Translations under genes and position numbers: made by a program
The notes under the pieces: generated by a model
Seen by the model: the letters and a program-made list of their open reading frames with translations, nothing else
What the model was told of the DNA's origin: nothing
Databases searched by the model: none
Part shown: positions 1-18,737 of the stretch, piece by piece
Numbering within the stretch: position 1 is the first letter of the stretch
Layout of the letters: each line of letters starts with the position of its first letter
Virus record (IMG/VR): IMGVR_UViG_3300030385_002010
Location: 1 to 40,967 of that record
Direction: 5' to 3' (one strand)
Source of the DNA: a virus
DNA: 40,967 nt

Positions 1-1134
1 GGTATTCCAAAAACTACATACACAGAAGCAGATACAGGCAAAGCATTATCAGCAATGGATGTTTATGCGTATGGTAAATATGGTAAAGGAACTGCCAAAC
101 ATGAGGAGTGGTTTGGTGAAGAAGCTGCTCGTGAACGTGGTATGAAAGAGATTGACGTAACTCAAAAAGAGAGTATATCTACAGCTGCTGCATCTTATGG
201 GGGTAAAAAAGAACAATACGATTTAATGCAGACACAAAATAAAGAATTATTAGATAAATATGAAGAACCTCTTACATTGTCAGACCCTAATGCGATAAAA
301 TCTGATGCTAAAAAAAGAGATACTAGGTCTGTGGAATCTCAGATTAATCCTAATTATCAAGACTTTATTGTCGAATCCGATCTACAACAAGCAGCATTAC
401 CATATGACCCCACTACCTTGAAAGAAGTATATAGTTCTGAAGATGAATTGCCATATGACCCAGCTACCTTGAAAGAAGTATATAGTTCTGAAGATGAAGT
501 GCCTCCGAAAAGAATTGAACCATCAATAGGTCCAGGTAGAAAAGAACCTGAAAAAACTGGAAAATCTGAAGCATCTTATGAGAGTCCACCAGGTAGTGTA
601 ATGGATGCTCTTACTTCTCCTGATACAGATTATTTATGGCCAGGGGCAGCAAAGGGTAGTATTACTAGTAGTCTAATTGAAAGAGTTATAGGGGTGGAAT
701 CTTCTGGTGTTTCTTCAGAAGTTAATAAAAAATCAGGAGCACAGGGGTTAATGCAGATTATGCCAAATACTGCAAAGGAAATCAGGGCAAGATTAGGTGA
801 GGGAAAATGGACACAATTAGAGGGTGAGGATGCATGGTCTGATGTTGAACTCGGTGTTGATCTACTAGACCCTAAAGAGAATATTAGGCTTGGAACCGAG
901 TATCTTAATATTTTATCTGAAAAATATGGAGGAAATATTGAGAATACTTTAATGGCATATAATTGGGGTCGTGGCAATGTTGATAAATTATTAAGTGGAC
1001 AACCATTGAGAATACCAGATGAAACACATCAATATATGGACAGAGTATTGGGAACTTCAGGAATGAGAGAGACAAAAGGGGAAGAAGAAAATATTTTATC
1101 AAGAGTTAGAACAAATTATGGAGGTTGGTACTAA
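1..1134 (+). CDS. Lytic transglycosylase (SLT domain) virion protein, 5'-truncated
   Basis: The reading frame is open from base 1, so the gene begins upstream of the window; the first Met is at 55. Numbering from that Met, residues about 205-310 form an SLT/lysozyme-like lytic transglycosylase domain: the catalytic Glu in GVESSG (E215), the GAQGLMQIMP motif (228-237), NIRLGTEYL (276-284) and AYNWGRGNV (301-309). This family cleaves the MurNAc-GlcNAc bond of peptidoglycan. In podoviruses such domains sit in internal virion proteins that open the cell wall during DNA ejection. Position directly upstream of the glycine-zipper, coiled-coil and giant proteins supports that role. The N-terminal half is a low-complexity, charged linker containing a 17-residue tandem repeat. 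The domain call is firm; the ejection role is inference. Confidence 0.88.
   Translation, partial: GIPKTTYTEADTGKALSAMDVYAYGKYGKGTAKHEEWFGEEAARERGMKEIDVTQKESISTAAASYGGKKEQYDLMQTQNKELLDKYEEPLTLSDPNAIKSDAKKRDTRSVESQINPNYQDFIVESDLQQAALPYDPTTLKEVYSSEDELPYDPATLKEVYSSEDEVPPKRIEPSIGPGRKEPEKTGKSEASYESPPGSVMDALTSPDTDYLWPGAAKGSITSSLIERVIGVESSGVSSEVNKKSGAQGLMQIMPNTAKEIRARLGEGKWTQLEGEDAWSDVELGVDLLDPKENIRLGTEYLNILSEKYGGNIENTLMAYNWGRGNVDKLLSGQPLRIPDETHQYMDRVLGTSGMRETKGEEENILSRVRTNYGGWY
397..498 (+). repeat. 51-bp tandem duplication inside the transglycosylase gene
   Basis: Two adjacent 51-base units (397-447 and 448-498) encode LPYDPTTLKEVYSSEDE and LPYDPATLKEVYSSEDE. They are nearly identical at DNA level, which suggests a recent in-frame duplication in the linker before the SLT domain. 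Confidence 0.95.
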
Positions 1135-1730: not shown

Positions 1731-2900
1731 ATGGCAGGATTAGACGTAGCATTAAATATATTAAGTTCAGGTTCAGTTGGTCTGACTCAGACTAGGTTTC
1801 AAGAACTACAACTTTCTCTTGCGAAGATGGAACTTGAGACTAAGAGAGATACAATGCGTGAGGAAGTCCTCATGCGTAAGGAACAGAGACAACGTGAAAA
1901 TACATTATATGCTCTCGATACTAGTGAAAAATATCTCAAGGAAGAGAAATTTAATGCAGCTAACTCAGTCATTAGTAATCTCGTTGGTATTCTACCAAAT
2001 TTTGAATTAGATATGTCAATGAAGCAGATAAAAAAGCAGCTCAAGGACAAGGTTCCCAATGAACTATTACAGAATAAGATTGCCAGTATAGTATTTAATT
2101 ATTATAGTGAGAGTGAGGCTTCACAGTTAGCAGCCGTTGAATCAGCAACAAATTTATCTGAGTATATTAATTCTGAGTATAGTGTATCAAAATCAACAGC
2201 AGCGGCGACACCTGGATTAAATAGACTGATAAAAGCAGGTCTCATTGATAAGCCAAGATTGCCAGATAATAAAACTCCTAATCCTAATTTTGAAGCGTCG
2301 GTTCTACCATATTCTTTACTTAGTAAAACAAAAGATATAAAACGTAATATCGCACAAGAGAGAGCTGAGATTGGTGCTGGTGATTATACAATACAAGAAG
2401 ATATTCTATTGCCAACGCAAATGGAAGCAGCTTTTGAGGCATTAGCTGTAGGTACTTTTGATCAGGCTGGTTTTGATAAAGCTCTAGATAATCTTGGTGG
2501 CGTAATAGATGGAGAGACAATACAGTTCGCTGAGGGCTCAGCTGCTGAAGCTAAAAATGAATATAGTTCAGCAATTAACAGGCGTAAAGAACTACAAAAA
2601 CAAAAATCAAATCTTGAGGGGCTTATAGAGGAAGGGTTCACAGGTCAGACATCTGCTGGATTGACTATTCTTAATGAACAAATAGCAGAACAACAAGAGG
2701 AATATATAACAAAATTAAACAATTTAAGGAAAGCAAACCGAAAAGAATATGATGCTAACTTGGAAGCTGATGCAAAACAACATTTAGCTGGGTCTGGATT
2801 AAGAGAAACTGCTGAAAATATTGAAGCGATGAAGAAACGATTAGAAAAGATAAGAACTTCACCAATTACATTAGCAGTTGAGGATGCTCCAGGATTTTAA
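1731..2900 (+). CDS. Coiled-coil internal virion protein, unknown family
   Basis: A 389-residue protein I do not recognise. AAGGAT precedes the ATG by about six bases. Residues about 15-75 and 280-375 are highly charged and heptad-like (many E, K, Q and R), predicting two coiled-coil regions around a more mixed centre. There is no signal peptide, membrane segment or catalytic motif. It lies nine bases after the glycine-zipper gene and 14 bases before the giant gene, in the same cotranscribed block. An internal virion or ejection-complex component is the best guess. Confidence 0.6.
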   Translation: MAGLDVALNILSSGSVGLTQTRFQELQLSLAKMELETKRDTMREEVLMRKEQRQRENTLYALDTSEKYLKEEKFNAANSVISNLVGILPNFELDMSMKQIKKQLKDKVPNELLQNKIASIVFNYYSESEASQLAAVESATNLSEYINSEYSVSKSTAAATPGLNRLIKAGLIDKPRLPDNKTPNPNFEASVLPYSLLSKTKDIKRNIAQERAEIGAGDYTIQEDILLPTQMEAAFEALAVGTFDQAGFDKALDNLGGVIDGETIQFAEGSAAEAKNEYSSAINRRKELQKQKSNLEGLIEEGFTGQTSAGLTILNEQIAEQQEEYITKLNNLRKANRKEYDANLEADAKQHLAGSGLRETAENIEAMKKRLEKIRTSPITLAVEDAPGF

Positions 2901-2914
2901 TAAAGATATAATAA

Positions 2915-5900
2915 ATGCCTGATAATTTAACAGAGCGATTCAAGAAGCAACTTGAAAAACAAGGTGTAGCCGCTACTGACGCTCAGATAACTTCCTACCT
3001 TCAACAAAAGGGATTAATGGAACCAGAGCAAAATCAGTTAATGCCTTTATCAAATGCCATTCAACAACGAACAATGTCATATGATGCAACACCTGAAACT
3101 GATGATAAAATTGATTTATTGCAAGGAGTTGCAGCTGGTGCATGGAGTTTATTTGATGTAGCAGCTCTAGGAATACCTGGGTTGGCTGGACTTACACCTG
3201 AGTATGTGCAATATGAAAAACTTGGTTCTGCAGGTAAGGTTGGTAGGGTTCTTGGTGAAGCTTTGGGTTTCTTAGTCCCACTAAAAGGTATCAGCGCAGT
3301 TACAAGAGGAGCTGCTAGTCTTGCTAGGGGAAGTAAAGCTGGTATTAGTCGGGCTGCTAAGATAGCTGAAAAGACAGCGGGGCAAGCCGGTGTATCTGGA
3401 GTTGCAGCTGCACGTGTGATACGTAATGTTGGAGCAGACAAACACGTAAGACTTAATGTATTACCTAGATATGCTCTAAAAGGAGAGAACCTTGATGATG
3501 TTGGAAAGGTCATGAAGGAACAGTTTGAAATTGGATTAAAAAAAGAATTCCCTACATTGCAACCAAGGCAACTTGAATCAATAGCTGATAATGCTGTTAA
3601 TGCAGTTCGTGGAGAAGCAAGACATATTAATTCTGTTGGTCAGTGGCTTGAATCTCGTTTGGCTACAAGGTTTCCTGACAAGGGTAAGATAACAAGATAT
3701 GCTGCTGATGCTGCAGATATGTCACTAAATTTTGGTTTGTATAATGTTCTAGCTGATGCTACAAGAAGCGTAATTAGTGGTTCTGAGTTTACCCCTGGAC
3801 ATGATGTATGGGATGCAATGAAGTTCTCTGCGTTTTTACCAGCTGTCCATGCAATACCTGGTGGAGGTAGGGCGTTGTTAGCTACTCGAAAACATATGAA
3901 TGAGATGTTAAAAAGTTTCAAAGCAAGAGGCCCTGAATATTATGATACTTTAGCTAGACAGGGAAAGAAAGAACAGTTGAATGGATTGCTTCGGTTTATT
4001 TCTAGAGGTACAAAGTATGATGCTGCTGTTAGTGCCGCAGCTGCGCCTTATAGGAGAGCAGATTTACCAGCTAAAGAAGCTGCTGCAATGATAAATAAGA
4101 TTGTAAAGAAAGGTAATCTTGATAGGACTGCAAGAGAATTTATATCAGAAGCGGGTAGTGATATAGTAGGTTCACTTCCACGTATGCTTGTTGGTGCATT
4201 ATACTTTAATTCAAATGTATTACTAGACAGAGATTTACTTAGAAATATACCAAAGGAAGAAATGTGGACACACCTATTGGTTGGAGCATTATTTACAAAG
4301 AGACATAAGCCATTATACCAAGAGAAATTTCCAACATTAAAGAATTTAGATAGAAAGCTTGAGTTACTTAGAACTTTAGGTATTGACGCTGATGCTTTTG
4401 GCGACTACGCTACTGGTCTGAGCAGGTTTGATGAGATTGGAATGGCTAGTGCTGGTATAAAAGATAACACTGAAGCTATGGAGATGGTGAGGATATTCGA
4501 TACAGATAAGGTAGTCAAAGAATCCACTGACCCAAAGAAGGCGGTTGGAGAACAGGGTCTTTCTAATTATGATTTGGTTAGACAGGCTCATGATATACAT
4601 AATCTACATCAAATATCAGCTAATAGCCTTGGTGACGCAGGTAAGAAGAGAATTGATATAAAGAATTTAAGTCATGATACACTAAAAGAAATTGAAGCAC
4701 AACTTAGGTCTATAAAAATTAATGCAGAAGGTGAAACATTAACTGAATCTAATTTTCCTGAGTGGAAGGAGGCATTTCAAAGGTCATTAAGTGAAGGCCC
4801 CGCTGAAGTATATCTAGAAGCTATTGCTGCTGTTGCAGATATTTTACAGATACCAACTGATGGTTCTCCAACTATTGACGGAAAGTTAAGGGTTGGTAGG
4901 ATAGAGAACTGGTTAAATACAGATTTAGTATTAGACAGTACTGAGTTATCTCAATGGATTGAATTGAGAGATAGGTTTGAACGATGGGGATACTTGGAGA
5001 CATTTGAGGAGGTTACCCCAACTAAAGCAAACGATATTGCTGGTGCGACTAATACAAAAGCAGTACTAGATAGGATTGCGGCTGTAATCAATAGTGTGCC
5101 AAAGATTTTAGAGAAAGCAAATTATGAGGAGGGAGTTGTTAGTGATATATCTATAACAGATAATGGTTTCCTTGATACGATACGACATTATAAAAATGAG
5201 AAAAGAAAAGATTCACTCTTTAGAATTATATCAGGTGATAAAAATATGACTGAAGAGGAGTCGAAAATTCGTAGGTCTTTAGATGAAACTCTTGGTGAAA
5301 CGATACCTTCACAGCTTGGAAAGATTCAAGACCTTATAAGAATTAAGCTAACCAAGGAAGAGAAAAGAGACCCAGCAAAAAAAGATACAAAGGCATTAAT
5401 AGAGGATAAACTTCATGATATTGCTCATATGTGGAGTATATCAAAGTCCGATGGTAGGAAGAGAATAGATTTAACATTAGAGCAGGCAGGCTCATTAGTC
5501 GGTTCTATGGAAGCTGAGGGTCTTTTATATGATAACAATCTATATCGTCACGATGGATATGAAACTGTTAATAAACATTTTTGGCAGAGAATATTACAGT
5601 CTTCTGATATTGGGGCAAAAGAATTAGGTATTGTAAGAATAGGTATCGACAGTGGACTTGTTGGTGTTTCGACTGGTGGAGGTGGAAGACCTAGGCTTGA
5701 ATGGCCAGATAGAGAAGTAATGGCTCAGGCTTTAGCAAGGGAAAGAGAAACTACTATTGATGACCCTGGTGTTGTAGAGGATTTAAAAAAGTATGATACG
5801 ATACTGAATAATATTCTGAGTATTAAAGGTAAATTTATTGATACTGGCAAAAGGATGATTGATCCAAGTTCAATGGCTGAGCAAGGATATTCTGCATTTA

Positions 5901-8900
5901 TACATGATGCTTTTATAATGTCAGAGAAATATGACAAGATGGTTACCGATAAAGTAAGGCAGTTGGAAGAAGTTTATAGTAAGAATGATACAATTAATAT
6001 TCAAATAAAGAGTCTCGTTGAAATGTTTAAAGACGAGAAGGGCGAGTTTAAAGATATTGAAGCAGCTGATATAGAAGAGATAATGACAAAGCTCGAGATT
6101 ATTACTAAAGACCCTGAAATAATAAAGACACTCACTGACGAGCAGATGGGATTAGTAAAAGCGTTAAAGTCTAAGTTTGGTATTGATAAAGCTATGGGAG
6201 CAGAGGCTGCTAGTTATAGTTCTGCCGCAAAAGGTATCGAAGCAATGATAGAATCACTGTTCAATGACAACTCAAGGTTTAGACGAGTAGCTAATGAATT
6301 GATATATAGTATTAGCTCAGGTTCATCAGCTCGTGTACGTGGGCCTGAAAGATTAGATCAATTAACAAAGTTGTTGGTGGATGATTTAAAGAGCATGAGG
6401 GTGGAACTAGATCAGGAGAAGAAGCTTGGTCTTGGAGATATACACGAAGAGTTTGTTAAAGCCGGTAATCTAGAAAAGTATATGAAACATCTTGAGATAG
6501 CAGCCAGTGCTTGGGCTAAAGATTATACAGAAGAACAGTGGATGGAGTATTCCAGGGAGATAAGGCAACGTGAAAATGATGCATCGTCTATGGATATTGA
6601 TGCTCCAGAAAGATTTGGAGTACAGTATATACCATCAAAGTATGGTGTTCATAATGAAAAATTAAAAGAGGATAATTTTAGAGGGATACTTGACCATCTT
6701 AGAATGATGAGAGATGAAGCTGCTGCTACACAAGAAGCCACTGGTAGTACAAGGCTATGGAAATCTTTTGATGAGGCAGGTCAGGAGCTCATTAATGAAG
6801 TAAGAAAAGCAATTGATAAAAAGAATAAGGACAAACCTGAAGAAGCTGACGCAGAATACAGTAAGTTTTTAGCACAAGCTTTACATCCTCTTCTAGCAAA
6901 CGTAGCTGGCATGGAAAAGATACCAACAATGAGCCTCGAGCAGGGTTCAAATGGTAAGCTCATGCTTATGTTAGGTGAGAGTCTTTCAGGTTCAGGTGAA
7001 CTATCTAGATTTATGAAGGAAGCCATAAAATTAGAGGATACGATAGGGATATTCAGGTTAAGGAAGAGTGGAGTATATAATAATCGTAAGGTAAATATAC
7101 GAGAGTCACTTGATAATTTTGATTCTATTATAAATGGCATTGAGGGTAATAATATTCAGCCTGATGTTAGGCTTATTCCACGTGAGACATCAGAAAGAGA
7201 TGCCCCTGTTGTATATGCTGGTGCAAAGGAGAAGCCTACTAAGGGTATATCAGTATCCACTGGTCTTAGCAATCAACTGTGGGTAAGAACAGATAACTTA
7301 ACTGATGGTAGGCTCAACCGATGGTTTAAAGAATGGTATGATAATAAGATATCTTCTCTTGATAACATTGTTGAGACTGGGTCAAGTAAGGATGCAAGTA
7401 ATGCTAGAATAATACGTACTCGTATGGAGACTTTATATAGAGATTTTGCTAGTACCAGGGAAGGTATGGATTCATATGATTCTACAGACCCAGCAGTGAG
7501 GAACATGGTAAGAGCAATGTACTGGGATAGAGTTTCCCCAGATTTATTCAACGAAATGGTACGAGCCATGGACACTCGTGACCAGGCTGACGCTGCTGGA
7601 GCGGCCTTTATGAAATATATGTCCTTAGCTGAAGCAACTGGAGCTAAAGTACAAGGTAAATATGAAGTTGTTAGGGCAATATTAAATCTTAACCCCGAAC
7701 TAAAGCCAGAACAGAGGGCAAGTTTACAGAGTTATGTCGATAGACCTGAGTTAAGAATTTCAGTTATCGCTGATGAAGCAATGAAACAGTTGGATGCAGG
7801 TGAAATATCCAAGAGTCAATTAAAGAAATTAAAGAAGAAGTATCCTGAATCAGCTGCGATGATTGAGGCAATGACTGGTGAGCTAGGAGAATATTTAAGA
7901 AGTGTTAAGGGCTCATCAATAAATGCACAGTCATGGTTAAGTACAAGAGCAGCTCATATATTATATGCAATAAAGGGTAGAAGTCTTGATGATAATCTTG
8001 CTGGTATAAAGCCGTCAGGAGCATTTAGCGGACCTGAGGGCTCAATGTTATTGAAGACTAATTTTGTTTATGACCCATATATTGCAAGTAAGATGGATAA
8101 ATTAGGTCTTGATATACTATCAACAGAGTCAGCTGCGAAGGTATTTACTATAGCTAATAAGGTTAATATTGAAGGTAAGATGGGTTCGACTGATGAAATG
8201 TCTGATAGATTTTACGATAGGTACGGTAGTAAGGAAAGTTTTCTTGACAGTGGAGAGTTTGGGTCGATAGCATTAGAGAATATATACTTAGGTAAGGTGA
8301 CTGATAGAAAGGGTGCTACCAGTGTATCTTATGCATTGATGGATTTTCTTGATTCAGTTAACATGAATAGTTTAGTTGAAAAAGGTGGGTATTTTGACTA
8401 TGCAAGCTTAGCTGCTGAAGGTATAAAAAAGTTATATAGTATTACCACTGGAGATTCTAAGAGTTTGGGTCTTGCATTGAGTCTTATTCATGAATCAAGA
8501 GAGTCTGGCGAAATATTTGATCGGAGCAAAGCAGGCCTTGTGGAGTATTTATTAAATAATGGTATGGATCCTGATGCTTCTGTTATAAATCCATCGTTAC
8601 AGAGGATGGCTGTAAAAAGTCTGATGAAAGAATTTAAATCACCACAAACAGATGGCTCATCTTATTCTATATTAAAACCATTTATAGAGGGACAACCTTC
8701 AGTCTATGCTGAAGTTGCGGGACCAAGGGGTAGCTTTCACCGTCAGATAATATATGGAGAGAAGAGACTACCTTATGAGGATAGAAATATTCCCATTAGT
8801 AACTGGAATAAAATAAAATATATTGTTACTATTGGTGGAAGAGATATACAGGTAGGCGTAAATAATAAAGGCAAGTACGAATTTATTGACAATCTTGAGG

Positions 8901-11752
8901 GTGATAGATTATATAAAGATAAAGAGAGGCCAGATAAAATTATTGGTACTATTGAAAAAATAAAAAGTAAGGTAATCAATGACATCAGTGGTACTCCATC
9001 TATGCATCATCTTCATCAGTATTTAAAACAGGGAAATCTTATACAAGAGTTCATGCCTGGAAAGTATGAGCCAATGGATATTAGTATTTCATCACTTACT
9101 CTAAGGATGCCTAATCTTGGTGGTGATGTTGCTGTTCATAAGATTGAAGGATTTTATAAATCAATCGAGGGGAATGTTGTTGGTATTAATCCGTTAGATT
9201 TAGCAGCTGTGCATCAGGGTGACTTTGATGTTGATGCTGCAATGAATTATCATGATGTGCCTTGGGAGTTGAACAAGGCTCACTCAAAGAATCTTGGATT
9301 AGCAGTTGACGCTATAACTTATCCAGGTGACTCATATGACATGGATATATTTGAGAACGGTTATAGAACTGATAAGCCTGCTGGTTACGGAGGGGCTGGT
9401 TTATCTGATGGTATGCAGAATCATATAAAAAACTATGAAAATTCAAAGAAAGTATTTGGTTCTATAAAGAGATTGTCAAGTGCAATATCTTCTTTAGAGA
9501 GACTCAATTTTAGCGCAACTAAGTTTAGTACAATACAGAAAGATAGTCCTGAATATGCTCAGTGGCTACAGAGATATAAAAATACTCTTCAAAGTATTAT
9601 TGATGCAACAAAGAGACCCAATTTTGTTTCAAGAGCCAATGCTGATGACATACTTGAGTGGGTACTATTTGGTGAGATGTCTAGGTTGGGAGATGATTAT
9701 ATTCCTCAAGAATTAAGAGTAGGCACAGAAAAATGGCATGAGCAGGGTATTGGTGAAGGATATTTTAAACTGGGTGAAATGTCAGCTAATGAACGATTTA
9801 TGTATAAGGAAGCTGTCATCGAAATGGTTAAGACTCTAGGCGCTCCACAGAGAATACTCAGTGGTATCTTTGATGAGTCTGGTAGAAGAGCTCCTGAAAT
9901 AAAAGATATAAATACAATGTATTCAGACATGGAGAAGTTCTTTAAGAGACCGCAAGCAACTATAGCAAGTAGACTATTAATAAAACACCGTGGCGAAGAA
10001 GGTTTTAGAAATGCAGTACTGAAAGAATTTTATGGTATAAGTGAAGCGGGTGAATACAGGGATACACAATCGTTCTTTGCTGACTATTTTTCTAAGAAGA
10101 AAAGGACACCAGAATCATTAGCAGAAGTGTTTTCATTTGGAGTTAAACCAGAGATAGCTATTATGTCTACACCAGGGGGTAGAATAGCAAGTGAAATTGT
10201 TGGTCAACAGAATAGTTTAAATATGTTGAGTGAGAGATATGGTGATTTTAAGACATCTTCATTGCAAGACAAGGTAGGATCGGCTTTAGGTGACTTAGAA
10301 GAATACGCTGCTATTGTAGGAGAGAAAGAATTTAGAAATACTCTAACAGAAATGGTGGCTGGTGGTGACTTAGCTGCTGAGGCAGTTGCTGGTGATAAAT
10401 TACGTTCACTTACAACATTGTTTGGTAGAAAAGGTAACCAAGGTGAAAGGCTTTTAACTAGTCACAAAAGTGTTCAAGAGTATTCTGTTATTGCTCATAT
10501 GTTAGAGAATGAGATTTCATCTTTGCAAGGATTTATAAATAGAAACAGTAGCCCTAGAGGCACAACTGATGCAGTCGATAGAGCTACATTTAGAATGAAA
10601 TTATTTAAATCTGTGGTAGATGGTATAGACAGGAAAGAACATAGAATCATTGGAGGTCTAGGCAGTAAGAAGAAAGGCAATGAACTTAGAAAGCATTTCT
10701 ATTTTGTTGATAAAAATTGGAGCAAGGAAAAGAAGAGTAGAGCGTATAAGAATGATACTAAAAATCCACATTATGTATATCGTGAGGTAGATAGGTCTGG
10801 TAGGAAAAGTTTTAAGCTAGCTAAAGTGGTTAGACCAAATGGTACAAATTGGTTAAGACCAGGTAAGTATGTTATTCTCAAAAATCCAATAAGATATACT
10901 CCAGTAAATAAGAAAGAAATTATTGATGCTTACTCTTTACTTGAGGCTGTTGGTGAAACTATCCCAAGATTTATTCAAGGTATGGAAGAGCATATGATAC
11001 CTGAATTTTATCATGACACTGGGGAGATGCGTAAGGAACTTGGTACTTTGGCTAAAGATGTTTACGAACAGTCAAATAAAAGTCCATACTCAAGAGAGAA
11101 TTGGATGTTGGAAGGTAAACTTGAAGATAACATTGTTAATGAGTTCTTTGAAAAATGGTTACCTCGTTTAACTAAATCTGTTGACGGCCACTTGCGCGAT
11201 TACGAACCAAGCGATATAGTTGTTTGGCAGCTAGCAGCTGAGCTTATGAAACCAAGACCTATAGCCGGCTTAGTAGCATATACAAAAGGTACTGCAAAAA
11301 TACATTTACCAGAGTTCAGAATAAATAAAAGATTAGTTTCTGCTACATTCAGGTATTTAAGAGATGGCGGATATGGGGAAGTTGCAAAGGATATAGCAGG
11401 TAAATACGGTAGGGCATATAGAAGGAGGCAACATAGTGTACTTCCAATAGAGGAACAAAGTATGTATGTGAGCAATCTTTATAATGAGAAATCAATACTT
11501 AAAGACCGTAATCCATTGGTTGAATTAACTTTTGGAAAAGGTTACTTATATTCACCAGCCTTAAGACATCGTATAAGAGATGATATAAGGAGTAGAGACC
11601 CGAAAGAGTATTGGAAACGTGATATAAATGGTAACTTCTCACGTATTGTTGATTATGGTAACTGGCGAGATATTGATTCAGAATTCGAATATTATTTAGA
11701 TAGGAATAAGTTGTTTGATAATAAAGAGAATAAAAAGAGGGAGTGTGAATAG
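2915..11752 (+). CDS. Giant virion protein; candidate two-barrel (multisubunit-type) RNA polymerase
   Basis: A 2945-residue protein, more than a fifth of the window. Residues about 70-150 are hydrophobic and Gly/Ala-rich, possibly membrane-active. Residues 2064-2107 read R2064-M-P, then H2075-K, E2085-G, NPL (2092-2094), AA (2097-2098) and DFDVD (2103-2107). This follows the beta-prime order R-Q-P...H-R...EG...PL...AA...DFDGD, whose three aspartates bind catalytic Mg. Upstream, K1714 (LLKTNF) and K1742 (ESAAKVF) are spaced like the two conserved lysines of the beta-type barrel in QDE-1/YonO-like single-chain polymerases. Lys-pair barrel first and Asp barrel second is the order of such enzymes. 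Giant polymerases packaged in virions are known in N4 (T7-type) and crAss-like phages (two-barrel gp66). I infer a virion RNA polymerase injected with the DNA. No search could be run; alternatives are a catalytically dead relative or a large polyvalent ejection protein. Confidence 0.72.
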   Translation: MPDNLTERFKKQLEKQGVAATDAQITSYLQQKGLMEPEQNQLMPLSNAIQQRTMSYDATPETDDKIDLLQGVAAGAWSLFDVAALGIPGLAGLTPEYVQYEKLGSAGKVGRVLGEALGFLVPLKGISAVTRGAASLARGSKAGISRAAKIAEKTAGQAGVSGVAAARVIRNVGADKHVRLNVLPRYALKGENLDDVGKVMKEQFEIGLKKEFPTLQPRQLESIADNAVNAVRGEARHINSVGQWLESRLATRFPDKGKITRYAADAADMSLNFGLYNVLADATRSVISGSEFTPGHDVWDAMKFSAFLPAVHAIPGGGRALLATRKHMNEMLKSFKARGPEYYDTLARQGKKEQLNGLLRFISRGTKYDAAVSAAAAPYRRADLPAKEAAAMINKIVKKGNLDRTAREFISEAGSDIVGSLPRMLVGALYFNSNVLLDRDLLRNIPKEEMWTHLLVGALFTKRHKPLYQEKFPTLKNLDRKLELLRTLGIDADAFGDYATGLSRFDEIGMASAGIKDNTEAMEMVRIFDTDKVVKESTDPKKAVGEQGLSNYDLVRQAHDIHNLHQISANSLGDAGKKRIDIKNLSHDTLKEIEAQLRSIKINAEGETLTESNFPEWKEAFQRSLSEGPAEVYLEAIAAVADILQIPTDGSPTIDGKLRVGRIENWLNTDLVLDSTELSQWIELRDRFERWGYLETFEEVTPTKANDIAGATNTKAVLDRIAAVINSVPKILEKANYEEGVVSDISITDNGFLDTIRHYKNEKRKDSLFRIISGDKNMTEEESKIRRSLDETLGETIPSQLGKIQDLIRIKLTKEEKRDPAKKDTKALIEDKLHDIAHMWSISKSDGRKRIDLTLEQAGSLVGSMEAEGLLYDNNLYRHDGYETVNKHFWQRILQSSDIGAKELGIVRIGIDSGLVGVSTGGGGRPRLEWPDREVMAQALARERETTIDDPGVVEDLKKYDTILNNILSIKGKFIDTGKRMIDPSSMAEQGYSAFIHDAFIMSEKYDKMVTDKVRQLEEVYSKNDTINIQIKSLVEMFKDEKGEFKDIEAADIEEIMTKLEIITKDPEIIKTLTDEQMGLVKALKSKFGIDKAMGAEAASYSSAAKGIEAMIESLFNDNSRFRRVANELIYSISSGSSARVRGPERLDQLTKLLVDDLKSMRVELDQEKKLGLGDIHEEFVKAGNLEKYMKHLEIAASAWAKDYTEEQWMEYSREIRQRENDASSMDIDAPERFGVQYIPSKYGVHNEKLKEDNFRGILDHLRMMRDEAAATQEATGSTRLWKSFDEAGQELINEVRKAIDKKNKDKPEEADAEYSKFLAQALHPLLANVAGMEKIPTMSLEQGSNGKLMLMLGESLSGSGELSRFMKEAIKLEDTIGIFRLRKSGVYNNRKVNIRESLDNFDSIINGIEGNNIQPDVRLIPRETSERDAPVVYAGAKEKPTKGISVSTGLSNQLWVRTDNLTDGRLNRWFKEWYDNKISSLDNIVETGSSKDASNARIIRTRMETLYRDFASTREGMDSYDSTDPAVRNMVRAMYWDRVSPDLFNEMVRAMDTRDQADAAGAAFMKYMSLAEATGAKVQGKYEVVRAILNLNPELKPEQRASLQSYVDRPELRISVIADEAMKQLDAGEISKSQLKKLKKKYPESAAMIEAMTGELGEYLRSVKGSSINAQSWLSTRAAHILYAIKGRSLDDNLAGIKPSGAFSGPEGSMLLKTNFVYDPYIASKMDKLGLDILSTESAAKVFTIANKVNIEGKMGSTDEMSDRFYDRYGSKESFLDSGEFGSIALENIYLGKVTDRKGATSVSYALMDFLDSVNMNSLVEKGGYFDYASLAAEGIKKLYSITTGDSKSLGLALSLIHESRESGEIFDRSKAGLVEYLLNNGMDPDASVINPSLQRMAVKSLMKEFKSPQTDGSSYSILKPFIEGQPSVYAEVAGPRGSFHRQIIYGEKRLPYEDRNIPISNWNKIKYIVTIGGRDIQVGVNNKGKYEFIDNLEGDRLYKDKERPDKIIGTIEKIKSKVINDISGTPSMHHLHQYLKQGNLIQEFMPGKYEPMDISISSLTLRMPNLGGDVAVHKIEGFYKSIEGNVVGINPLDLAAVHQGDFDVDAAMNYHDVPWELNKAHSKNLGLAVDAITYPGDSYDMDIFENGYRTDKPAGYGGAGLSDGMQNHIKNYENSKKVFGSIKRLSSAISSLERLNFSATKFSTIQKDSPEYAQWLQRYKNTLQSIIDATKRPNFVSRANADDILEWVLFGEMSRLGDDYIPQELRVGTEKWHEQGIGEGYFKLGEMSANERFMYKEAVIEMVKTLGAPQRILSGIFDESGRRAPEIKDINTMYSDMEKFFKRPQATIASRLLIKHRGEEGFRNAVLKEFYGISEAGEYRDTQSFFADYFSKKKRTPESLAEVFSFGVKPEIAIMSTPGGRIASEIVGQQNSLNMLSERYGDFKTSSLQDKVGSALGDLEEYAAIVGEKEFRNTLTEMVAGGDLAAEAVAGDKLRSLTTLFGRKGNQGERLLTSHKSVQEYSVIAHMLENEISSLQGFINRNSSPRGTTDAVDRATFRMKLFKSVVDGIDRKEHRIIGGLGSKKKGNELRKHFYFVDKNWSKEKKSRAYKNDTKNPHYVYREVDRSGRKSFKLAKVVRPNGTNWLRPGKYVILKNPIRYTPVNKKEIIDAYSLLEAVGETIPRFIQGMEEHMIPEFYHDTGEMRKELGTLAKDVYEQSNKSPYSRENWMLEGKLEDNIVNEFFEKWLPRLTKSVDGHLRDYEPSDIVVWQLAAELMKPRPIAGLVAYTKGTAKIHLPEFRINKRLVSATFRYLRDGGYGEVAKDIAGKYGRAYRRRQHSVLPIEEQSMYVSNLYNEKSILKDRNPLVELTFGKGYLYSPALRHRIRDDIRSRDPKEYWKRDINGNFSRIVDYGNWRDIDSEFEYYLDRNKLFDNKENKKRECE

Positions 11753-14418
11753 TGAGCTGTTTAGAGCCATCTGAAAAAAGATTAGAAGTACGGGATAATC
11801 TGCAGAAGCTGCGAAGATTATTTAACGGAGAGAAGATACTTGACGTTGATAATAAGAGCAGGAGTATAGGCAATGTAATAAAAGATACCTATGGTGATAT
11901 CAGGGAAGGGTTCTCTAGTACAATGTTTGATGAGTTAGTGTTTAACTCGACTTATAAGCCTGCTACTGAAGACTATTTAAATTTTAAGAAATCTGACTAC
12001 AGACGTATAGCGAATGAGATTGAAAAGGAAGCTAAGGCCCTCAGCAATAAAAAGATTAATTGGTTTGAACGTCTGTTTTTTGTAAAACGAGGTACAATGA
12101 GTAAGTACACCGTTACACGTTGGATGAATAAACAGATAAACGGTCAGATAAACTATGAACGTAGCAAATATAGTAATTATGTTAATTGGAATAAGAATAT
12201 ATCTGATTTATTAAGGGAAGAAGTAGTCGACAGGGGCTCTCCCAGGAGTCTTTGGTGGAAGCAGGCAGGTAATCTACAAAAGCTTGAAAGAGATTTACAG
12301 ATGGAGCTTTCTAACCCAAAGTCTGAAGAATCATTTGATAGGGCACAGTCTATTCGTAATAGGATTACTGATTTAATGGCGACAGAATCTGGTGAGGTAA
12401 TATCTCAATTTATAGAGTTTATGGAGACTGAGCCAGCTACAAATGGTAGAAAGTATAGATTAGTTGATGGAAAGAAAGAACTTTTTTCACCAAGGATTGA
12501 AGTTGCTGGTAAAGCTGCTAGGGATTTACTTGATGATATGGGTTCAGTTCAGATAAACGGATTGGAATATCACAAGGAGGTTATGCGACTGGCTACATTT
12601 AATAGTAAGAGTTTATCTGATGCTCAAAAATCAACCAGGCTTGGAAAAAAGTTTCTAAAATTTGAGGAGAAAGTTGATAAGATTAGAAAAGATATTACAA
12701 AAGGTATTAGTAGGGGCAATTATTTTCCTCATATTATGATGGAAGTTGGTATGCAGAATATCGAAAAAGTCATGGAAAAAATGGATAAGGAAAAGACGCC
12801 TGAAGATTTAAGAAGAAATGCTCCAACATATATGGGTGAGATTGGTGATATAATGTCTAGAATGAGAGATGGTATGGGTCTTACCACTCAACAGGTGAAG
12901 GCAAGAGGAGCAAGGGATTATCATCAGTGGGTACATAATCCTTTAGCTGCTATTCGTAAATATTCACTTGATGCATTAGCATTTAATAAACACAATAAAT
13001 TAAAGACCATTTACTTGAGGGGCATAAAGCGATTGCCTAAAGACGCTGAATCAGCCAGGGTATTAAAGAACTATATTGATGATGTATTTACTTTAGCATC
13101 TCATGGATTCAAGGATAGACCAGGATGGATAAATAAAACTGTTAGAACATTAACAGGTTTTGAGTTTTTATCAAAGATTGGTTTTGGGGTAGCTACTGCA
13201 GCTCGTAACATGATGTCAGGTGTATATTATATGCAGGGACTCGGCAACAGAGCATTTTATAATTATATAAAGGAATGGAATTCTAACGAACATCTTGCTA
13301 CTGATATTATTAAGTTAGAACGAGAAGCTGGATTTAGATTTGAAGATATAGCTCAGGAATATGCATTAGAAGGATTATTGCCGACTGAAGGCACAAGAGT
13401 GTCTGATATGGATATAAAGATAGACAATGCGGGAAAGCCATACTTTGCATATAAAGACAATGTTGGTTGGCATAATTTTGACTCTGGACTTGCTTGGGCT
13501 ACTAATAAGGGAGCAATATTTCAGAAGTACACTGAAAATATATTGCGTAAGCATATGTTCCGTTCATCTTACTTGACTAAATGGAAAGAACTTGAACTCG
13601 CTGGCATGAAGGGTGGAGAAAAGCAAAAAGATAGAGTTAAGATGAGAAACATTTCTAAAACATATGCTCTTGATATGGTAAACAAGTATGCATTTGAATA
13701 TGCGGCCTCACAGAAAGCACCAATCACAGGTGGTACTTCAAGTAATTTAGGAGCAGTTGGTCAGGTGGTTGCTCAGTTCTTTCATTTCCCTTTTTCATTT
13801 TTACAACTGCAATCAGAAGTATTGAGAAACTCAAAGGATGCTGCTATTGCTAGACAGTGGGATAATCCTGACTTATTAATACCAATGAAGTTTGCTGGTA
13901 TGTATGCTTTTACTCATTTAATGTCAGGTATAACAAATCTTGATTTTCACAGGCTGATAGAAAATGATACAGTAGAAAGAATAAAAGATTTAAAGGCAGT
14001 AGCTGAGGGCAAAGAGGATGTTAAAGGTAGGGGATTCGTTGGACCTGCTGTTGGTGACTTGTTTTTCTTAGCTACTCTAAAAGAATTTATTGAATTACCT
14101 GACTCTGAAGTTAGCAATCTTATCTTAGGATACAATAATGCATACACTTTAACTGATCCACAAAAGCAACAGCGACTTTTATCTACACTCAATGTCGAAT
14201 TATCCAAAGCAGTTTATCGTGGATACCCGGCGCTACAGACAGGAACCGGCTGGAACTGGTTGATGCACGAATTTGGTTTATACCCAAGAGCATGGACAAG
14301 TGAATTACATGAGCAAATAGGTTTTAAAAAGCCAAGGAAAAGAAAGACTGGTCGAAAGGTAAGACCTAGAAAGTCAGAAACAGAACTTGATAGATTATAC
14401 AGGGCAATGGGCATATAG
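11752..14418 (+). CDS. Large internal virion protein with hydrophobic C-terminal half
   Basis: An 888-residue protein with a GTG start overlapping the giant gene's TAG (TAGTG) and AGAGGGAG upstream; the two are translationally coupled. The N-terminal half is charged and helical. The C-terminal half has amphipathic or hydrophobic stretches: around residue 470-495 with AARNMMSGVYY, around 674-690 with QFFHFPFSFLQLQSEVL, and further segments near 705-720 and 770-790. The extreme C-terminus is very basic (KKPRKRKTGRKVRPRK). The layout resembles the C-terminal parts of large polyvalent or ejection proteins of tailed phages, but I cannot name the family. It is probably packaged with, and acts beside, the candidate polymerase. 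It is the last plus-strand gene before the convergent minus-strand block. Confidence 0.62.
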   Translation: MSCLEPSEKRLEVRDNLQKLRRLFNGEKILDVDNKSRSIGNVIKDTYGDIREGFSSTMFDELVFNSTYKPATEDYLNFKKSDYRRIANEIEKEAKALSNKKINWFERLFFVKRGTMSKYTVTRWMNKQINGQINYERSKYSNYVNWNKNISDLLREEVVDRGSPRSLWWKQAGNLQKLERDLQMELSNPKSEESFDRAQSIRNRITDLMATESGEVISQFIEFMETEPATNGRKYRLVDGKKELFSPRIEVAGKAARDLLDDMGSVQINGLEYHKEVMRLATFNSKSLSDAQKSTRLGKKFLKFEEKVDKIRKDITKGISRGNYFPHIMMEVGMQNIEKVMEKMDKEKTPEDLRRNAPTYMGEIGDIMSRMRDGMGLTTQQVKARGARDYHQWVHNPLAAIRKYSLDALAFNKHNKLKTIYLRGIKRLPKDAESARVLKNYIDDVFTLASHGFKDRPGWINKTVRTLTGFEFLSKIGFGVATAARNMMSGVYYMQGLGNRAFYNYIKEWNSNEHLATDIIKLEREAGFRFEDIAQEYALEGLLPTEGTRVSDMDIKIDNAGKPYFAYKDNVGWHNFDSGLAWATNKGAIFQKYTENILRKHMFRSSYLTKWKELELAGMKGGEKQKDRVKMRNISKTYALDMVNKYAFEYAASQKAPITGGTSSNLGAVGQVVAQFFHFPFSFLQLQSEVLRNSKDAAIARQWDNPDLLIPMKFAGMYAFTHLMSGITNLDFHRLIENDTVERIKDLKAVAEGKEDVKGRGFVGPAVGDLFFLATLKEFIELPDSEVSNLILGYNNAYTLTDPQKQQRLLSTLNVELSKAVYRGYPALQTGTGWNWLMHEFGLYPRAWTSELHEQIGFKKPRKRKTGRKVRPRKSETELDRLYRAMGI

Positions 14419-14450: not shown

Positions 14451-14669
14451 CTATATGCTGTTGTTATTAACCCCATTTGTCCAGGAGTCAAAACTAAACC
14501 TTAGAGCTATTTCCAGTTTATATATAGTTAATGATAATGACAAGAATCTGTCCATACGAAAAATGTTTACTGCAAACTTAAATGGGAACAATGATAAACT
14601 ACAAGTCTCCACCCAATCTTTCTTAAAATAAATTACTCCGAAGTTTTCACTTCCCATTGCTCTCGTCAT
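14451..14669 (-). CDS. Small protein, promoter-distal gene of the minus-strand block
   Basis: 72 residues, unknown family. GGAGG lies five bases before the ATG, and the gene overlaps the end of the resolvase gene by 23 bases. The middle is hydrophobic-aromatic (SLFPFKFAVNIF), followed by SLTIYKLEIALRFSF, suggesting a compact beta-rich fold. It faces the plus-strand 888-residue gene tail to tail across 32 bases. Confidence 0.6.
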   Translation of the reverse strand: MTRAMGSENFGVIYFKKDWVETCSLSLFPFKFAVNIFRMDRFLSLSLTIYKLEIALRFSFDSWTNGVNNNSI

Positions 14670-15144
14670 TATTTCCTCCGTTTTTTAGCCAGCTACATAT
14701 CATTATTGCATCGGCATTTTTTAGTGTTACTTTTATTTTCTGTTCGTCCATTACTTGATTTACAAGTTTGGCAGCTTTGTCTCTAAGTTCTCTTTTTCTA
14801 GACGGTTTATCTTTTGGCAGTTTATGTTCCTTTTGCCATTTAGATGGTAATACTTCTATATAGGGAATATCAGCGAATGATAAAGCAGCAATCCAAGCTC
14901 CATAATTTGTACCAAATTTAAATGCTGACCTTACTGCGTTATTAGGTTGAGCCCATACTCTTTCAATTGCAATAACTGGATCGAAATTACCATTTTTAAT
15001 AACTTCTCCCATAATCATAACAATGTCTGATATCTCTGGTATTGTTTTTGGACAGTTCATTACTTTCCATGTATCAATATCTTCCCTGTACATTGCGACT
15101 GCTCCACTGAACCCTGGATCAATTCCTGCGTATAATTTCTTCAA
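14647..15144 (-). CDS. RuvC-like Holliday junction resolvase
   Basis: 165 residues, close to the usual RuvC length. The RNase-H-fold acidic residues are visible: D9 in AGIDPGFSGAVA, E61 in VIAIERVWAQP and D145 in KNADAIMI. The family cuts branched DNA with two metal ions. In phages it resolves recombination and replication intermediates before packaging. The start is TTG, overlapping the helicase stop (TTGA), so translation is probably coupled to the helicase. The last third is Lys/Arg-rich, as expected for DNA contact. Confidence 0.87.
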   Translation of the reverse strand: MKKLYAGIDPGFSGAVAMYREDIDTWKVMNCPKTIPEISDIVMIMGEVIKNGNFDPVIAIERVWAQPNNAVRSAFKFGTNYGAWIAALSFADIPYIEVLPSKWQKEHKLPKDKPSRKRELRDKAAKLVNQVMDEQKIKVTLKNADAIMICSWLKNGGNNDESNGK

Positions 15145-16505
15145 TTTTGATTTTTACTACTAGCCAAAGCAGCCTCCTCTTGTGTGTAGAAGAATTTACA
15201 TCTGTTTCCATTGAATCCACATTCATATTTACCAATCTTACCATACCTTGTTTTAGCTGTTATGATTTCTGATGCATACCTACTACTTTCTTCAGGGTTA
15301 AATGTATATGGATAATATACAAATAGAGCAGATTCAGCAGTCTGTTCGATGACACCACTTTCAGCATAGTCACTCATAAATGGTCTTGGGTTGTATCTCT
15401 TTTCGATCTCTCTGTTTAATTGAGATACTAATATGGCATGACAATTATGTTCCTTACACGCCCATTTATATTGCATAAGTATTTCTTCAATTTCAAAGCG
15501 TCTGTCTTTATTCTTTATACTAGCAACCTTAATTAATTGAATATAATCATCTATGATTACATCAGGTTTATGTCTGCCTATCTCTATCAGTGTATCTTCT
15601 AATGTTCTAATATGGTCTACAACAATACAGTTATCATCAGTATACTTACCGTAACACTTCTGTATTACCTTACCTAAGTCACGTTTTTCATCTTTAGTTA
15701 AATCAGAGTGTCTTATTTTACCATATGTAACAGATGGGTACTCAGGATACGCTTCCATAGCAAATATTCTTTTGAATGTTTCTTCACAAGTCATTTCCCT
15801 ATTTATCATCATTACTTTAGCTCCATCATCAATTAAATCTCTTAATATATTGATTGCTAGCACTGATTTTCCATGACCGGGCCTGCCACCAATGACAGTG
15901 AGTTCTTTCCTGGTCATTCCACCAGCAAATGAATCTAATATTTTATTATTAAATTTAATTATATTTGCCGCTGTTAAGACTGCTTCTTCTGACCTGTCTA
16001 TTATATCAGCTATTGGTTTTACCGCTGTTGGTTGTAAGTTTTCTAATTCGTTTATTAAAACTTTATGTTTTTGTAATACTTCGGTGGTTTTGTTGAATTC
16101 CTGTGTAGTTACTCCGTATAATTTCTGTGCTGATTTAGCAGCTTCTCTTTGAATGTATTTTTCCCATACAATTTTAGAATATTCTTCAACTGATTGTGCT
16201 GCTGGTAAGTCTTCTGATAGACTAGATAACCAGTACGCTGATATCTTTTCTCTACCATACTCATCTTTAGCAAGAGCAGATACTGTAACTAAGTCAATTG
16301 CTTCTCTGTTTTTATATAGTTTTTCAATTACTTTCCATACCTTTTTATGGTCATCACTATAAAATGCATTATCTTCTCTAATCCACCCTTTTGCTTTTTC
16401 AAATGCGTCTTTTCCACCTAGTAAACAACATCCCAATACTGTGCTTTCAGCCATTATATTCGTTGGCAAAGCTGTGATGTCATCCCAGTTTATTGCTTTT
16501 GTCAT
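15141..16505 (-). CDS. DnaB-like replicative helicase
   Basis: 454 residues, typical DnaB size. An N-terminal helical domain (about 14-110; ESTVLGCCLL, DDHKKVWKVIEKLY) is followed by the RecA-like ATPase. The Walker A motif is GRPGHGKS (207-214), Walker B is DVIIDDYIQL (315-324), the sensor region is ILVSQLNRE (358-366), and SDYAESGVIEQTAE follows. The enzyme unwinds the replication fork as a hexamer using ATP or dGTP. AAGGAG lies five bases before the ATG, inside the end of the methyltransferase gene two bases upstream. No primase domain is fused to it, so priming must come from the host or another phage gene. Confidence 0.93.
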   Translation of the reverse strand: MTKAINWDDITALPTNIMAESTVLGCCLLGGKDAFEKAKGWIREDNAFYSDDHKKVWKVIEKLYKNREAIDLVTVSALAKDEYGREKISAYWLSSLSEDLPAAQSVEEYSKIVWEKYIQREAAKSAQKLYGVTTQEFNKTTEVLQKHKVLINELENLQPTAVKPIADIIDRSEEAVLTAANIIKFNNKILDSFAGGMTRKELTVIGGRPGHGKSVLAINILRDLIDDGAKVMMINREMTCEETFKRIFAMEAYPEYPSVTYGKIRHSDLTKDEKRDLGKVIQKCYGKYTDDNCIVVDHIRTLEDTLIEIGRHKPDVIIDDYIQLIKVASIKNKDRRFEIEEILMQYKWACKEHNCHAILVSQLNREIEKRYNPRPFMSDYAESGVIEQTAESALFVYYPYTFNPEESSRYASEIITAKTRYGKIGKYECGFNGNRCKFFYTQEEAALASSKNQN

Positions 16506-16507
16506 AT

Positions 16508-17392
16508 TTACTCCTTAAACATTGTAATTTGGTTATTCATTTCTGGCTTATAGTTAGTTATTACTAATTCTTCATGTTCAATCCTATTTTTATGTTTTGA
16601 ACTGCCAGCATAGTAGATTGGAATTGATGTAACAGTATAGTTTTTATATAGCTGTTTGATCAAATCAACCCCATCATAGGATAACATGAACTTTCCTCCT
16701 TCAGAGTCTATATTATTACATAATTTGAGTAGTCTGGCGTGACAGTCATCCTTAAATGTATGACGGTAATACTCTTTTCTTTTAGTAGCAATCATATAAG
16801 GTGGGTCCAAGTAGACAAAATCATCTTCATCAATTACATATTTATCAAATAATTTAAATATATCCATGTTCTCAAGTATTGAACCATCCAGTTGTTTCCT
16901 AGATAGTCTCAAGTCTGCTAACATTGATATTTTCCAGCTTTTATGGCTCATACCAAATGTACCAAATGCTTGCTTGTTAAAAGCGTTCTTTATCATGTAA
17001 TAATATAATGCGGCACGTTTGTAGTTTGGCAGTTCTTTCTTCTTCAGTTTCTTTCTGCACTCTTCTTTTGCCATTTCGAAGATGAGTCTAGATTTAGGTA
17101 ACCAGAAGGCTCTTTCGGTTAATTTTTCTAGGTTTTGGGACACACAAATATACAAATTTATTATGTCTCGATCAATATCATTTAGTATATTCTCGTCAGC
17201 TTTATGCTTCCGGAAGAATACACTAAGTCCTCCTGCGAATGGTTCAAAATAACGCCTGTGGGGTGGCATCATTGGAACTAAGACTCTGCTTAATTCGTAT
17301 TTACCACCCCAATAAGGTATTACTGTCGGGCATTCTAGCTTCGAGCCCTTAAAGCCCACGATTTCACTGTTGGATATACCTTGGATTCCCAT
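16508..17392 (-). CDS. D12-class (Dam-like) DNA adenine N6-methyltransferase
   Basis: The ATG at 17392 gives 294 residues; an in-frame TTG at 17410 is possible. The SAM-binding motif is FEPFAGGLSVF (49-59), preceded by the family's IPYWGGKYEL near residue 25. The catalytic motif is DPPY (196-199, YLDPPYMIATKRKEYY). Dam-type enzymes methylate adenine, often in GATC. In phages they protect DNA from restriction or control packaging and transcription. Target sequence cannot be read from this protein. The 5' end overlaps the DUF932 gene by 58 bases, with GGGAG inside that gene as a plausible ribosome site. Confidence 0.9.
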   Translation of the reverse strand: MGIQGISNSEIVGFKGSKLECPTVIPYWGGKYELSRVLVPMMPPHRRYFEPFAGGLSVFFRKHKADENILNDIDRDIINLYICVSQNLEKLTERAFWLPKSRLIFEMAKEECRKKLKKKELPNYKRAALYYYMIKNAFNKQAFGTFGMSHKSWKISMLADLRLSRKQLDGSILENMDIFKLFDKYVIDEDDFVYLDPPYMIATKRKEYYRHTFKDDCHARLLKLCNNIDSEGGKFMLSYDGVDLIKQLYKNYTVTSIPIYYAGSSKHKNRIEHEELVITNYKPEMNNQITMFKE

Positions 17393-18135
17393 TTGTGTGT
17401 GCTCTCCCAATTTCTATTCATAACATGACTTGCTAAATAAGTAGCTATATTTATCAGGTCCCAATATGTATTCATTGTATGACCTGCTAACATACGAGAT
17501 ACTGCAGCTTCCCCAGTGTATTCTGGTAACATCTTAATAAATTTGGCTTTATCTGATGCTCTTGCCTTTGTTTCTATAAGCAACGGAAAGTCCTTGTCAA
17601 ATATATCAAGAGTCTTATCTATTGACCTTTGAACTGCTTTGGCAAAATTCTCAGGATTTAGATTTTGATTACTAACAAGATGTCTAAAATTGTAATTAGA
17701 AATCATATGCCCTATTACCATGCCATTACTGCATACTAATCTGAAGCAACCGGCAATCATATTAACTTGATGCGTACCATCATAACTATTCCACATATCA
17801 ATATGCGGATTAAGATGGTCGTTCTCTGTTATTTTAACATCAACATCTGGGAATGTGAACTTGTATTTAGTTCTTGCACCGTTTCCAAATTGTCTGACCT
17901 CTGTTAATAATCCACCCTTTTCTTTTACTATTGGCTGGGCAATATTAAATATATCCTTATTCTGTACAAGCTTATAATCAGTAGTCATACAACTAAGAAC
18001 TTCACCGCTGTCCTCTCTAACTATGAACTTATATCCTGTTGAATCTATTTCTTTTTCATCTATTCCTTCAGGAGCTCCTATCGCAGGAACTTCTATCACT
18101 GGAAAGAATGTGTGGTCTGGTTTGTAAGTTTCCAT
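17335..18135 (-). CDS. DUF932 (phage/plasmid-like TIGR03299-type) protein
   Basis: 266 residues. The family signature is present: ...SGEVLSCMTTDYKLVQN near residue 43-60 and GCFRLVCSNGMVIG near the middle, followed by IDKTLDIF. The molecular function of DUF932 proteins is not established. They are common in phages and plasmids beside replication and recombination genes, as here. AAAGGAG lies five bases before the ATG, and the start overlaps the previous stop as TAATG. The C-terminus runs 58 bases into the methyltransferase gene. Confidence 0.82.
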   Translation of the reverse strand: METYKPDHTFFPVIEVPAIGAPEGIDEKEIDSTGYKFIVREDSGEVLSCMTTDYKLVQNKDIFNIAQPIVKEKGGLLTEVRQFGNGARTKYKFTFPDVDVKITENDHLNPHIDMWNSYDGTHQVNMIAGCFRLVCSNGMVIGHMISNYNFRHLVSNQNLNPENFAKAVQRSIDKTLDIFDKDFPLLIETKARASDKAKFIKMLPEYTGEAAVSRMLAGHTMNTYWDLINIATYLASHVMNRNWESTHKWESKVYPTVKSWALRARS

Positions 18136-18518
18136 TATAACTCCTTTACTGTTATTGGGTTAGTACCCATTATTGCTTTTTCATTTTTTTTAGCGTTTTC
18201 TATATCTCGAGATTCACTGCTAATCATTTTAACGAGATAATCAAATCCGTATCCTTTTAAATGAAGATTTCTACTCATAAATCTTTTAATACATCTATAA
18301 ACATATTGGTCATTTACATCAATAATTCTTGTAAGAAATTTTATCTCTTTCTCATCACTGTTATCATTTGTTCTATTATTTCTAATATATTTACTGACTG
18401 TAGCAATTGACATTCTTACTTCAATATGTCTTCTGCTTAATAATTCTGATTTCGATCTGGTATGTTCTTTATTTTCTCTTGATGTATATCCACATACTGG
18501 ACATTTACCTATCATCAT
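18135..18518 (-). CDS. Small protein with N-terminal CPVCG zinc knuckle
   Basis: 127 residues, unrecognised. It begins MMIGKCPVCGYTSRENKEHTRSK. The single CxxC is half of a zinc ribbon, and a nearby His might complete the site. The rest is basic and helical (KSELLSRRHIEVRMS, VYRCIKRFMSRNLHLKG), compatible with nucleic-acid binding. The ATG follows the upstream TGA directly. Role unknown, within the replication operon. Confidence 0.6.
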   Translation of the reverse strand: MMIGKCPVCGYTSRENKEHTRSKSELLSRRHIEVRMSIATVSKYIRNNRTNDNSDEKEIKFLTRIIDVNDQYVYRCIKRFMSRNLHLKGYGFDYLVKMISSESRDIENAKKNEKAIMGTNPITVKEL

Positions 18519-18737
18519 TCAATCGTTCTCCGTTTCTTTTTTAAATTCTAGCCATTCTTCTTTGTATTTCCAAGGTTTCTCAACTATACTTATTATTTTA
18601 TGAGCACCGTCATATTCATCAACAAAACCACCTATTTTATAGTCTGCCATCCAACGTAAAAATGAACAGTATTCATCTGCTTCCCACCAATGATCAATTT
18701 TAGATATATTCATTGTATTTTGATCGTATACACTCAT
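18519..18737 (-). CDS. Small acidic protein, unknown
   Basis: 72 residues, rich in Trp, Asp and Glu (DHWWEADEYCSFLRWMAD). The TAATG overlap with the upstream gene and AAAGGA upstream support it as real. No motif recognised; a small acidic aromatic protein could be a host-interaction or DNA-mimic protein, but nothing shows this directly. Confidence 0.55.
   Translation of the reverse strand: MSVYDQNTMNISKIDHWWEADEYCSFLRWMADYKIGGFVDEYDGAHKIISIVEKPWKYKEEWLEFKKETEND

Follow-up and report, generated by a model that had tools for sequence, protein, structure and literature searches.

Two-barrel polymerases form a superfamily that includes PolD and QDE-1; in the view of some, its single-chain members resemble an early state of the enzyme behind all cellular transcription. 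To our knowledge, few viral lineages with virion-packaged two-barrel RNA polymerases (RNAPs) have been studied. The virion RNAP of phage N4 (Schitoviridae), a podovirus protein of about 3,000 amino acids (aa) that is injected and transcribes early genes, is in contrast a T7-type single-subunit enzyme. Among two-barrel enzymes, gp66 of Cellulophaga phage phi14:2 (annotated as gp077 in KC821624; PDB 6VR4) holds both barrels in a single chain and is a virion component transcribing early genes (PMC7886860), and gp96 of Thermus phage P23-45, an RNAP joined to a giant virion protein that presumably enters with the DNA, provides a precedent for a packaged and ejected RNAP (PMC10770324).

Here we analysed the linear IMG/VR record IMGVR_UViG_3300030385_002010 over its whole length of 40,967 bases (the window), a contig with a podovirus-like gene complement, in which the gene at 2915..11752 encodes a giant protein of 2945 aa. 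A sequence-only reading had proposed that this protein contains a two-barrel RNAP core, and this is supported by conservation of the catalytic residues, a profile match to crAss-like RNAPs above that of shuffled controls, lysine motifs and blind structural matches. Systems of this kind, with a two-barrel RNAP in one chain joined to a giant virion protein, are known, and we consider it very likely that the C-terminal part of the chain here is such an enzyme, which would most likely be packaged, ejected and used to transcribe early genes.

Catalytic signature of the giant protein and its homologues

Regions of the giant gene and what they rest on:
2915..11752, plus strand: gene of the giant 2945-aa protein (proposed virion two-barrel RNAP); open reading frame (ORF) with homologues at the same locus
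9104..9235, plus strand: catalytic signature R2064-x-P...G2086...D2095...D2103-F-D2105-V-D2107; conservation and profile match
8657..9250, plus strand: proposed second-barrel region (beta-prime-like; double-psi beta barrel A, DPBB-A), residues about 1915-2112; strands predicted in the AlphaFold (AF2) model and profile match to crAss RNAPs
7916..8149, plus strand: proposed first-barrel signature (beta-like, DPBB-B), residues 1668-1745; three invariant lysines
9560..9682, plus strand: bridge-helix-like segment FLQxYKNTLQSIIDAxKxPN, residues about 2216-2256; conserved in the window-like branch
2915..4474, plus strand: N-terminal ~520 residues, kept between branches; BLAST between giant proteins and hydropathy

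Re-reading the sequence placed the ORF (plus strand, 2945 aa) and R2064-M-P, H2075-K, E2085-G, N2092-P-L, A2097-A and D2103-F-D-V-D exactly where the sequence-only reading had put them. Positions 9104-9235 (+) code in frame for RMPNLGGDVAVHKIEGFYKSIEGNVVGINPLDLAAVHQGDFDVD, corresponding to residues 2064-2107, and the matching frame of the minus strand contains several stops.

Relatives of the giant protein were found neither by single-sequence searches, nor among annotated phage records, nor in a scan of host genome contigs. The genes for terminase and capsid, for which viral contigs gave 378 and 569 related stretches, led to homologous giant proteins that occupy the same position of the genome in over 20 related IMG/VR contigs, additional scans contributing more loci; in the long contigs searched or read directly, they are mostly 2.7-3.2 thousand aa in length, at the same locus and with the motif at the matching place. 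The family comprises a window-like branch (DFDVD; 75% to ~30% identical to the 2945-aa protein), a DYDADK-like branch, an L227-like branch (DHDGD) and a branch with R-[QN]-P ... GDFDGD/GDWDGD. By BLAST, the 2945-aa protein is linked over residues 1657-2107 to the DYDADK branch (E 1.4e-7) and also to the L227 branch (E 4e-9), while the GDFDGD members match among themselves at 3e-33 and weakly to the DYDADK branch (6e-4 to 2e-3).

In a joint alignment of 22 sequences over residues 1652-2275 of the 2945-aa protein, with 15-20% identity between branches and a mean column identity of 29%, the columns G1688, K1699, K1714, K1742, P2066, D2095, D2103, D2105 and D2107 are invariant, and R2064, G2086, G2182 and L2251 are conserved at 95%. 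The Asp triad DxDxD, on whose conservation the sequence-only reading had made its proposal depend, is universal among the homologues found, being present in all 22 aligned sequences and in further giant proteins read. Furthermore, the core and the motif are under strong purifying selection, with ratios of nonsynonymous to synonymous substitution (dN/dS) of 0.14 in the core and 0.10 at the motif block when compared with the syntenic 51-kb relative G001.

The beta-prime-like residue list proposed earlier stands in part. Its R, P, G and three Asp persist in homologues otherwise at 15-20% identity, which takes the motif beyond chance, but its H-K, E, NPL and second A fail. Since H2075-K, E2085, P2093-L2094 and A2098 are unconserved even among relatives, their cellular matches are coincidental or lineage-specific, whereas D2095 and three lysines further upstream, all of them invariant, had been missed. 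The cellular RpoC barrel shares the order R-x-P ... EG ... DFDxD, and the near-cellular spacing claimed for the motif holds against Escherichia coli RpoC from E-G onward (one extra residue before the first Asp) but not upstream, where the distances from R to E and from R to H are longer by three and six residues, respectively. The cellular enzyme is further distinguished by its two subunits, by an Arg-Asp distance four residues shorter than in the 2945-aa protein, and by H-R, PL and AA elements that the giant-protein family does not conserve. The Val at the fourth position of DFDVD, previously raised as a doubt about activity, is no objection, because sister branches read GDFDGD or GDWDGD; family members carry Val, Ala, Gly or Ile there, and phi14:2 gp66 has Ile.

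Upstream, the proposed first-barrel signature consists of NAQS..., K1699-P, L-L-K1714, D1733 and S-A-A-K1742. Downstream of the catalytic barrel, residues of about 2216-2256 may form a bridge-helix-like segment, judging from LQSIIDAxKxPN, which by eye resembles FVDNAKDP of gp66 and QAAVDNPKE of a sister branch.

Two relatives show irregularities of their own. In G001, the closest relative, a stop or frameshift towards the 3' end, which may be a sequencing error, places the final ~90 residues of the giant protein in an ORF of their own (29800-30063, minus strand). The 111-kb contig G004 (L034, L045, L176, L177) has a second terminase gene and encodes two different giant RNAP proteins, of the DFDID and DWDGD types; it probably arose when the assembly joined two phage genomes of ~55 kb, or is otherwise a double phage.

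Comparison with crAss-like and other RNA polymerases

The crAss comparison set consisted of nine crAss-like RNAPs (phi14:2 gp66 and relatives), whose invariant residues include K1012, K1027, K1065, R1322, P1324, G1345 and D1361/1363/1365 (gp66 numbering); the D-x-D-x-D variant attributed to this group by the sequence-only reading is present in all nine. K1699, K1714 and K1742 of the 2945-aa protein were matched to crAss K1012, K1027 and K1065, and both the spacing of the first two lysines (15) and that from the Arg to the first Asp (39) are equal in the two groups. These lysines, upstream in the same chain, would have their role in the beta-like barrel.

With hhalign, ten close sequences matched the crAss profile at P 0.012, and the 22-sequence profile matched the nine crAss RNAPs at P 1.1e-5 with a score of 57.9, aligning R-x-P to DFDxD exactly. 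In controls, 60 column shuffles reached a maximum score of 16.9 and reversed alignments 14.8 and 16.8. The lysine region alone gave an in-register alignment to crAss (P 0.012). As the crAss match is significant only over the catalytic motif, it does not settle whether the family belongs to the gp66 clade or to the wider superfamily. The profile-profile relationship expected from the sequence-only reading thus appeared for the crAss-like RNAPs, but not for single RpoC, YonO and gp66 sequences; a single RpoB sequence against the family profile was likewise not significant. The top RpoC, YonO and gp96 alignments nevertheless fall on the Asp motif.

Among described systems, phi14:2 gp66 is the best profile and structural match, sharing RxPN.G ... 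G ... DFD[IV]D, three equivalent lysines and a giant protein coded among structural genes, although its sequence identity with the 2945-aa protein is too low for BLAST. In contrast to crAss, the RNAP here occupies the last third to half of a chain of 2.9 thousand aa, which is without a match to crAss families in PHROGs. The phage itself, at ~50 kb, also differs from the ~100-kb Crassvirales: its TerL, portal and major capsid proteins match PHROGs and phages other than Crassvirales and are not the signature structural proteins of that group. P23-45 gp96, a tape-measure-fused virion RNAP, and gp64 share a DFDGD motif, but the RNAP of gp96 is N-terminal on a siphovirus tape measure. A T7-type RNAP (PF00940) had no match in the window (G000), in G001 and G009 or in the other related records searched, while the phage T7 control matched. 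Within the crAss-like phages, the RNAP regions of NC_055868.1 (L203), NC_055900.1 and MT774394.1 bear the labels DNA helicase or nuclear pore complex-like protein in public records, apparently in error.

Structure was predicted in two template-free AlphaFold runs, the first from the ten close sequences and the second from a wider alignment. When the second model was searched blindly against 350,542 PDB chains, the top match was 6VR4, the phi14:2 virion RNAP (E 2.2e-4, probability 0.99), followed by the PhiKZ non-virion RNAP (probability 0.97) and, with weak E-values, by vaccinia, African swine fever virus (ASFV), P74-26 gp62 and E. coli RNAPs; two-barrel RNAPs make up most of the further top matches. 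Among the viral predicted structures of BFVD, unnamed proteins ranked best (E 1e-13), ahead of crAss phage proteins, among them one bearing the name putative RNA polymerase. Because AlphaFold may have learned 6VR4, the structural match is supporting and not independent proof. A predicted fold lacking the double-psi barrel would, according to the sequence-only reading, have spoken against its proposal; in the model, which is of low confidence, strands surround the motif and two-barrel RNAPs are matched, so that this objection does not arise.

Several results weigh against the assignment. The AlphaFold models have a predicted local distance difference test (pLDDT) of 51.8 and 56.3 and a predicted template modelling score (pTM) of 0.36 and 0.44, and at this low confidence the barrels are not resolved; the first model had no PDB match at all. 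Comparisons with single RpoC (P 0.088), YonO and P23-45 gp96 (P 0.078) sequences did not reach significance, and no Pfam or PHROG family matches the 2945-aa protein significantly. The L227/L228 pair of the DHDGD branch has Ala in place of the Arg of R-x-P, while retaining the Pro, the Asp triad and the Lys. Finally, no clear motif emerged when repeated early promoter motifs were sought.

Proposed packaging and competing explanations

In the proposed mechanism, the RNAP part would cover approximately residues 1450-2300 and beyond, C-terminal in the chain, with the beta-like barrel and its three lysines followed by the beta-prime-like barrel and the bridge-helix-like segment, and the DFDVD loop is predicted to bind the catalytic Mg ions. 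The gene lies in an ejection-protein cluster, and the protein is therefore most likely packaged; by analogy with crAss and P23-45, this ejection-type neighbourhood would imply a place in the virion. The N-terminal ~520 residues, with hydrophobic segments at residues 68-90 and 112-130 (hydropathy), are proposed as the packaging and ejection part, through which the giant protein could enter the cell along with the DNA. There it would transcribe the early genes, presumably the minus-strand block from 27.1 to 14.6 kb, leaving the remaining transcription to the host RNAP. RNA synthesis, ejection and promoter choice are what we infer from these comparisons; with a packaged RNAP core of its own, the phage would probably start reading its genes without the host enzyme. 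Counts of sigma-70 promoters (80 versus 71 expected) gave nothing usable.

The location in the virion being an inference, the protein might be a two-barrel RNAP made from the structural operon and acting solely inside the cell, all the more as P23-45 and jumbo phages also carry non-virion two-barrel RNAPs (PMC10770324). We regard this as unlikely, because the gene runs in the same direction as the late structural and ejection cluster that surrounds it, adjoining a transglycosylase protein, because the fusion to a giant conserved N-terminal part resembles the crAss and P23-45 virion RNAPs, and because an RNAP made late could not initiate early transcription unless packaged. Very unlikely, in turn, is a catalytically dead relic whose barrel was retained as a structural part of an ejected protein. 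The Val replacing the Gly of DFDGD and the extreme divergence of the motif from cellular enzymes might suggest it, yet it is chiefly the residues binding metal and substrate that are invariant in the family, under strong purifying selection, and the phi14:2 RNAP, described as active (PMC7886860), has Ile there.

Even less probable is a superfamily member with another mode of copying, i.e., a PolD-like DNA polymerase or an RNA-templated polymerase. PolD and QDE-1 lie within the superfamily, and neither the window nor G001 has a recognised DNA polymerase gene, but by profile and by structure the protein comes closest to the phi14:2 virion RNAP, a DNA-dependent enzyme, and the gene sits in the ejection cluster, not in the replication block. 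That the residues were merely picked out of an unrelated structural protein is the least probable of these explanations: a degenerate DNA pattern for PL..AA....DFDxD gave seven matches in 2.9 million viral contigs, none of them related, and part of the originally listed residues is unconserved, but chance would have to account for the conserved catalytic set, the significant profile match with its shuffled controls and the blind structural matches. A packaged single-chain RNAP is thus our preferred reading.

Divergence and genome context

Between the relatives and the window, the TerL, portal and capsid proteins mostly share 63-78% identity over the best aligned stretch (portal down to 45% in one), whereas the RNAP core is 20-38% identical or BLAST-undetectable (G002, G003, G005, G007, G009). 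This contrast points to either very fast evolution or exchange of the whole RNAP module; crAss RNAPs have likewise been described as unusually fast-evolving (PMC7886860). We lean slightly towards the broader view that packaged two-barrel RNAPs occur throughout a family of widespread uncultured podovirus-like phages of ~50 kb, in several branches that BLAST links barely or not at all, beside genes for capsid and terminase that are still mostly 60-75% identical. Such a virion RNAP would diverge, or be exchanged, much faster than its particle, and early promoters would probably co-diversify with it. The family is best read as unannotated, fast-evolving single-chain two-barrel RNAPs that are probably packaged. 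In the libraries searched, the family, its spread and its small-genome phages are unannotated, and no description of it was found in the open-access papers searched, the P23-45 survey and similar supplements aside. Our analysis adds a very diverse group of two-barrel polymerases in small phages together with a residue set for recognising it, leads to the prediction that many environmental viruses transcribe their early genes independently of the host, and offers, with conserved capsids beside very divergent polymerases, a natural series for studying enzyme and promoter evolution.

Neighbours of the giant gene in the 0-14.4 kb cluster:
55..1134, plus strand: transglycosylase/internal virion protein-like gene upstream of the giant gene; PHROG matches
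1731..2900, plus strand: 389-aa protein upstream, function unassigned; syntenic in G001
11752..14418, plus strand: 888-aa protein gene with a one-base overlap with the giant gene's stop; homologues adjoin the giant gene in relatives

Besides the 2945-aa and 888-aa proteins, this cluster encodes two smaller proteins and an internal protein of the transglycosylase type. The 888-aa protein, which like the giant protein has no PHROG match and no significant Pfam match, is a co-conserved partner of the giant protein and probably also ejected. A Pfam NAD_binding_9 match to the giant protein (E 0.02, whole protein, below cut-off) was rejected as spurious, just two of the 22 members matching.

The minus-strand block encodes a DnaB-type helicase, a Holliday junction resolvase, a DNA methyltransferase and a Cas4-like nuclease, all within 14647-29272, and the terminase, portal and capsid genes follow at 29.6-36.3 kb (29628-36325), with a TerL that is distantly N4-like. 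Since G001 has ~10 kb of extra genes between the two ends of the window, the latter represents roughly four fifths of a ~50 kb genome. The lack of a recognised DNA polymerase gene in the window and in the wider relative suggests that the phage uses host replication enzymes. Between the early and late blocks lies a divergent AT-rich intergenic region (27142-27440), which is 91% identical to G001 and a candidate early promoter or regulatory region.

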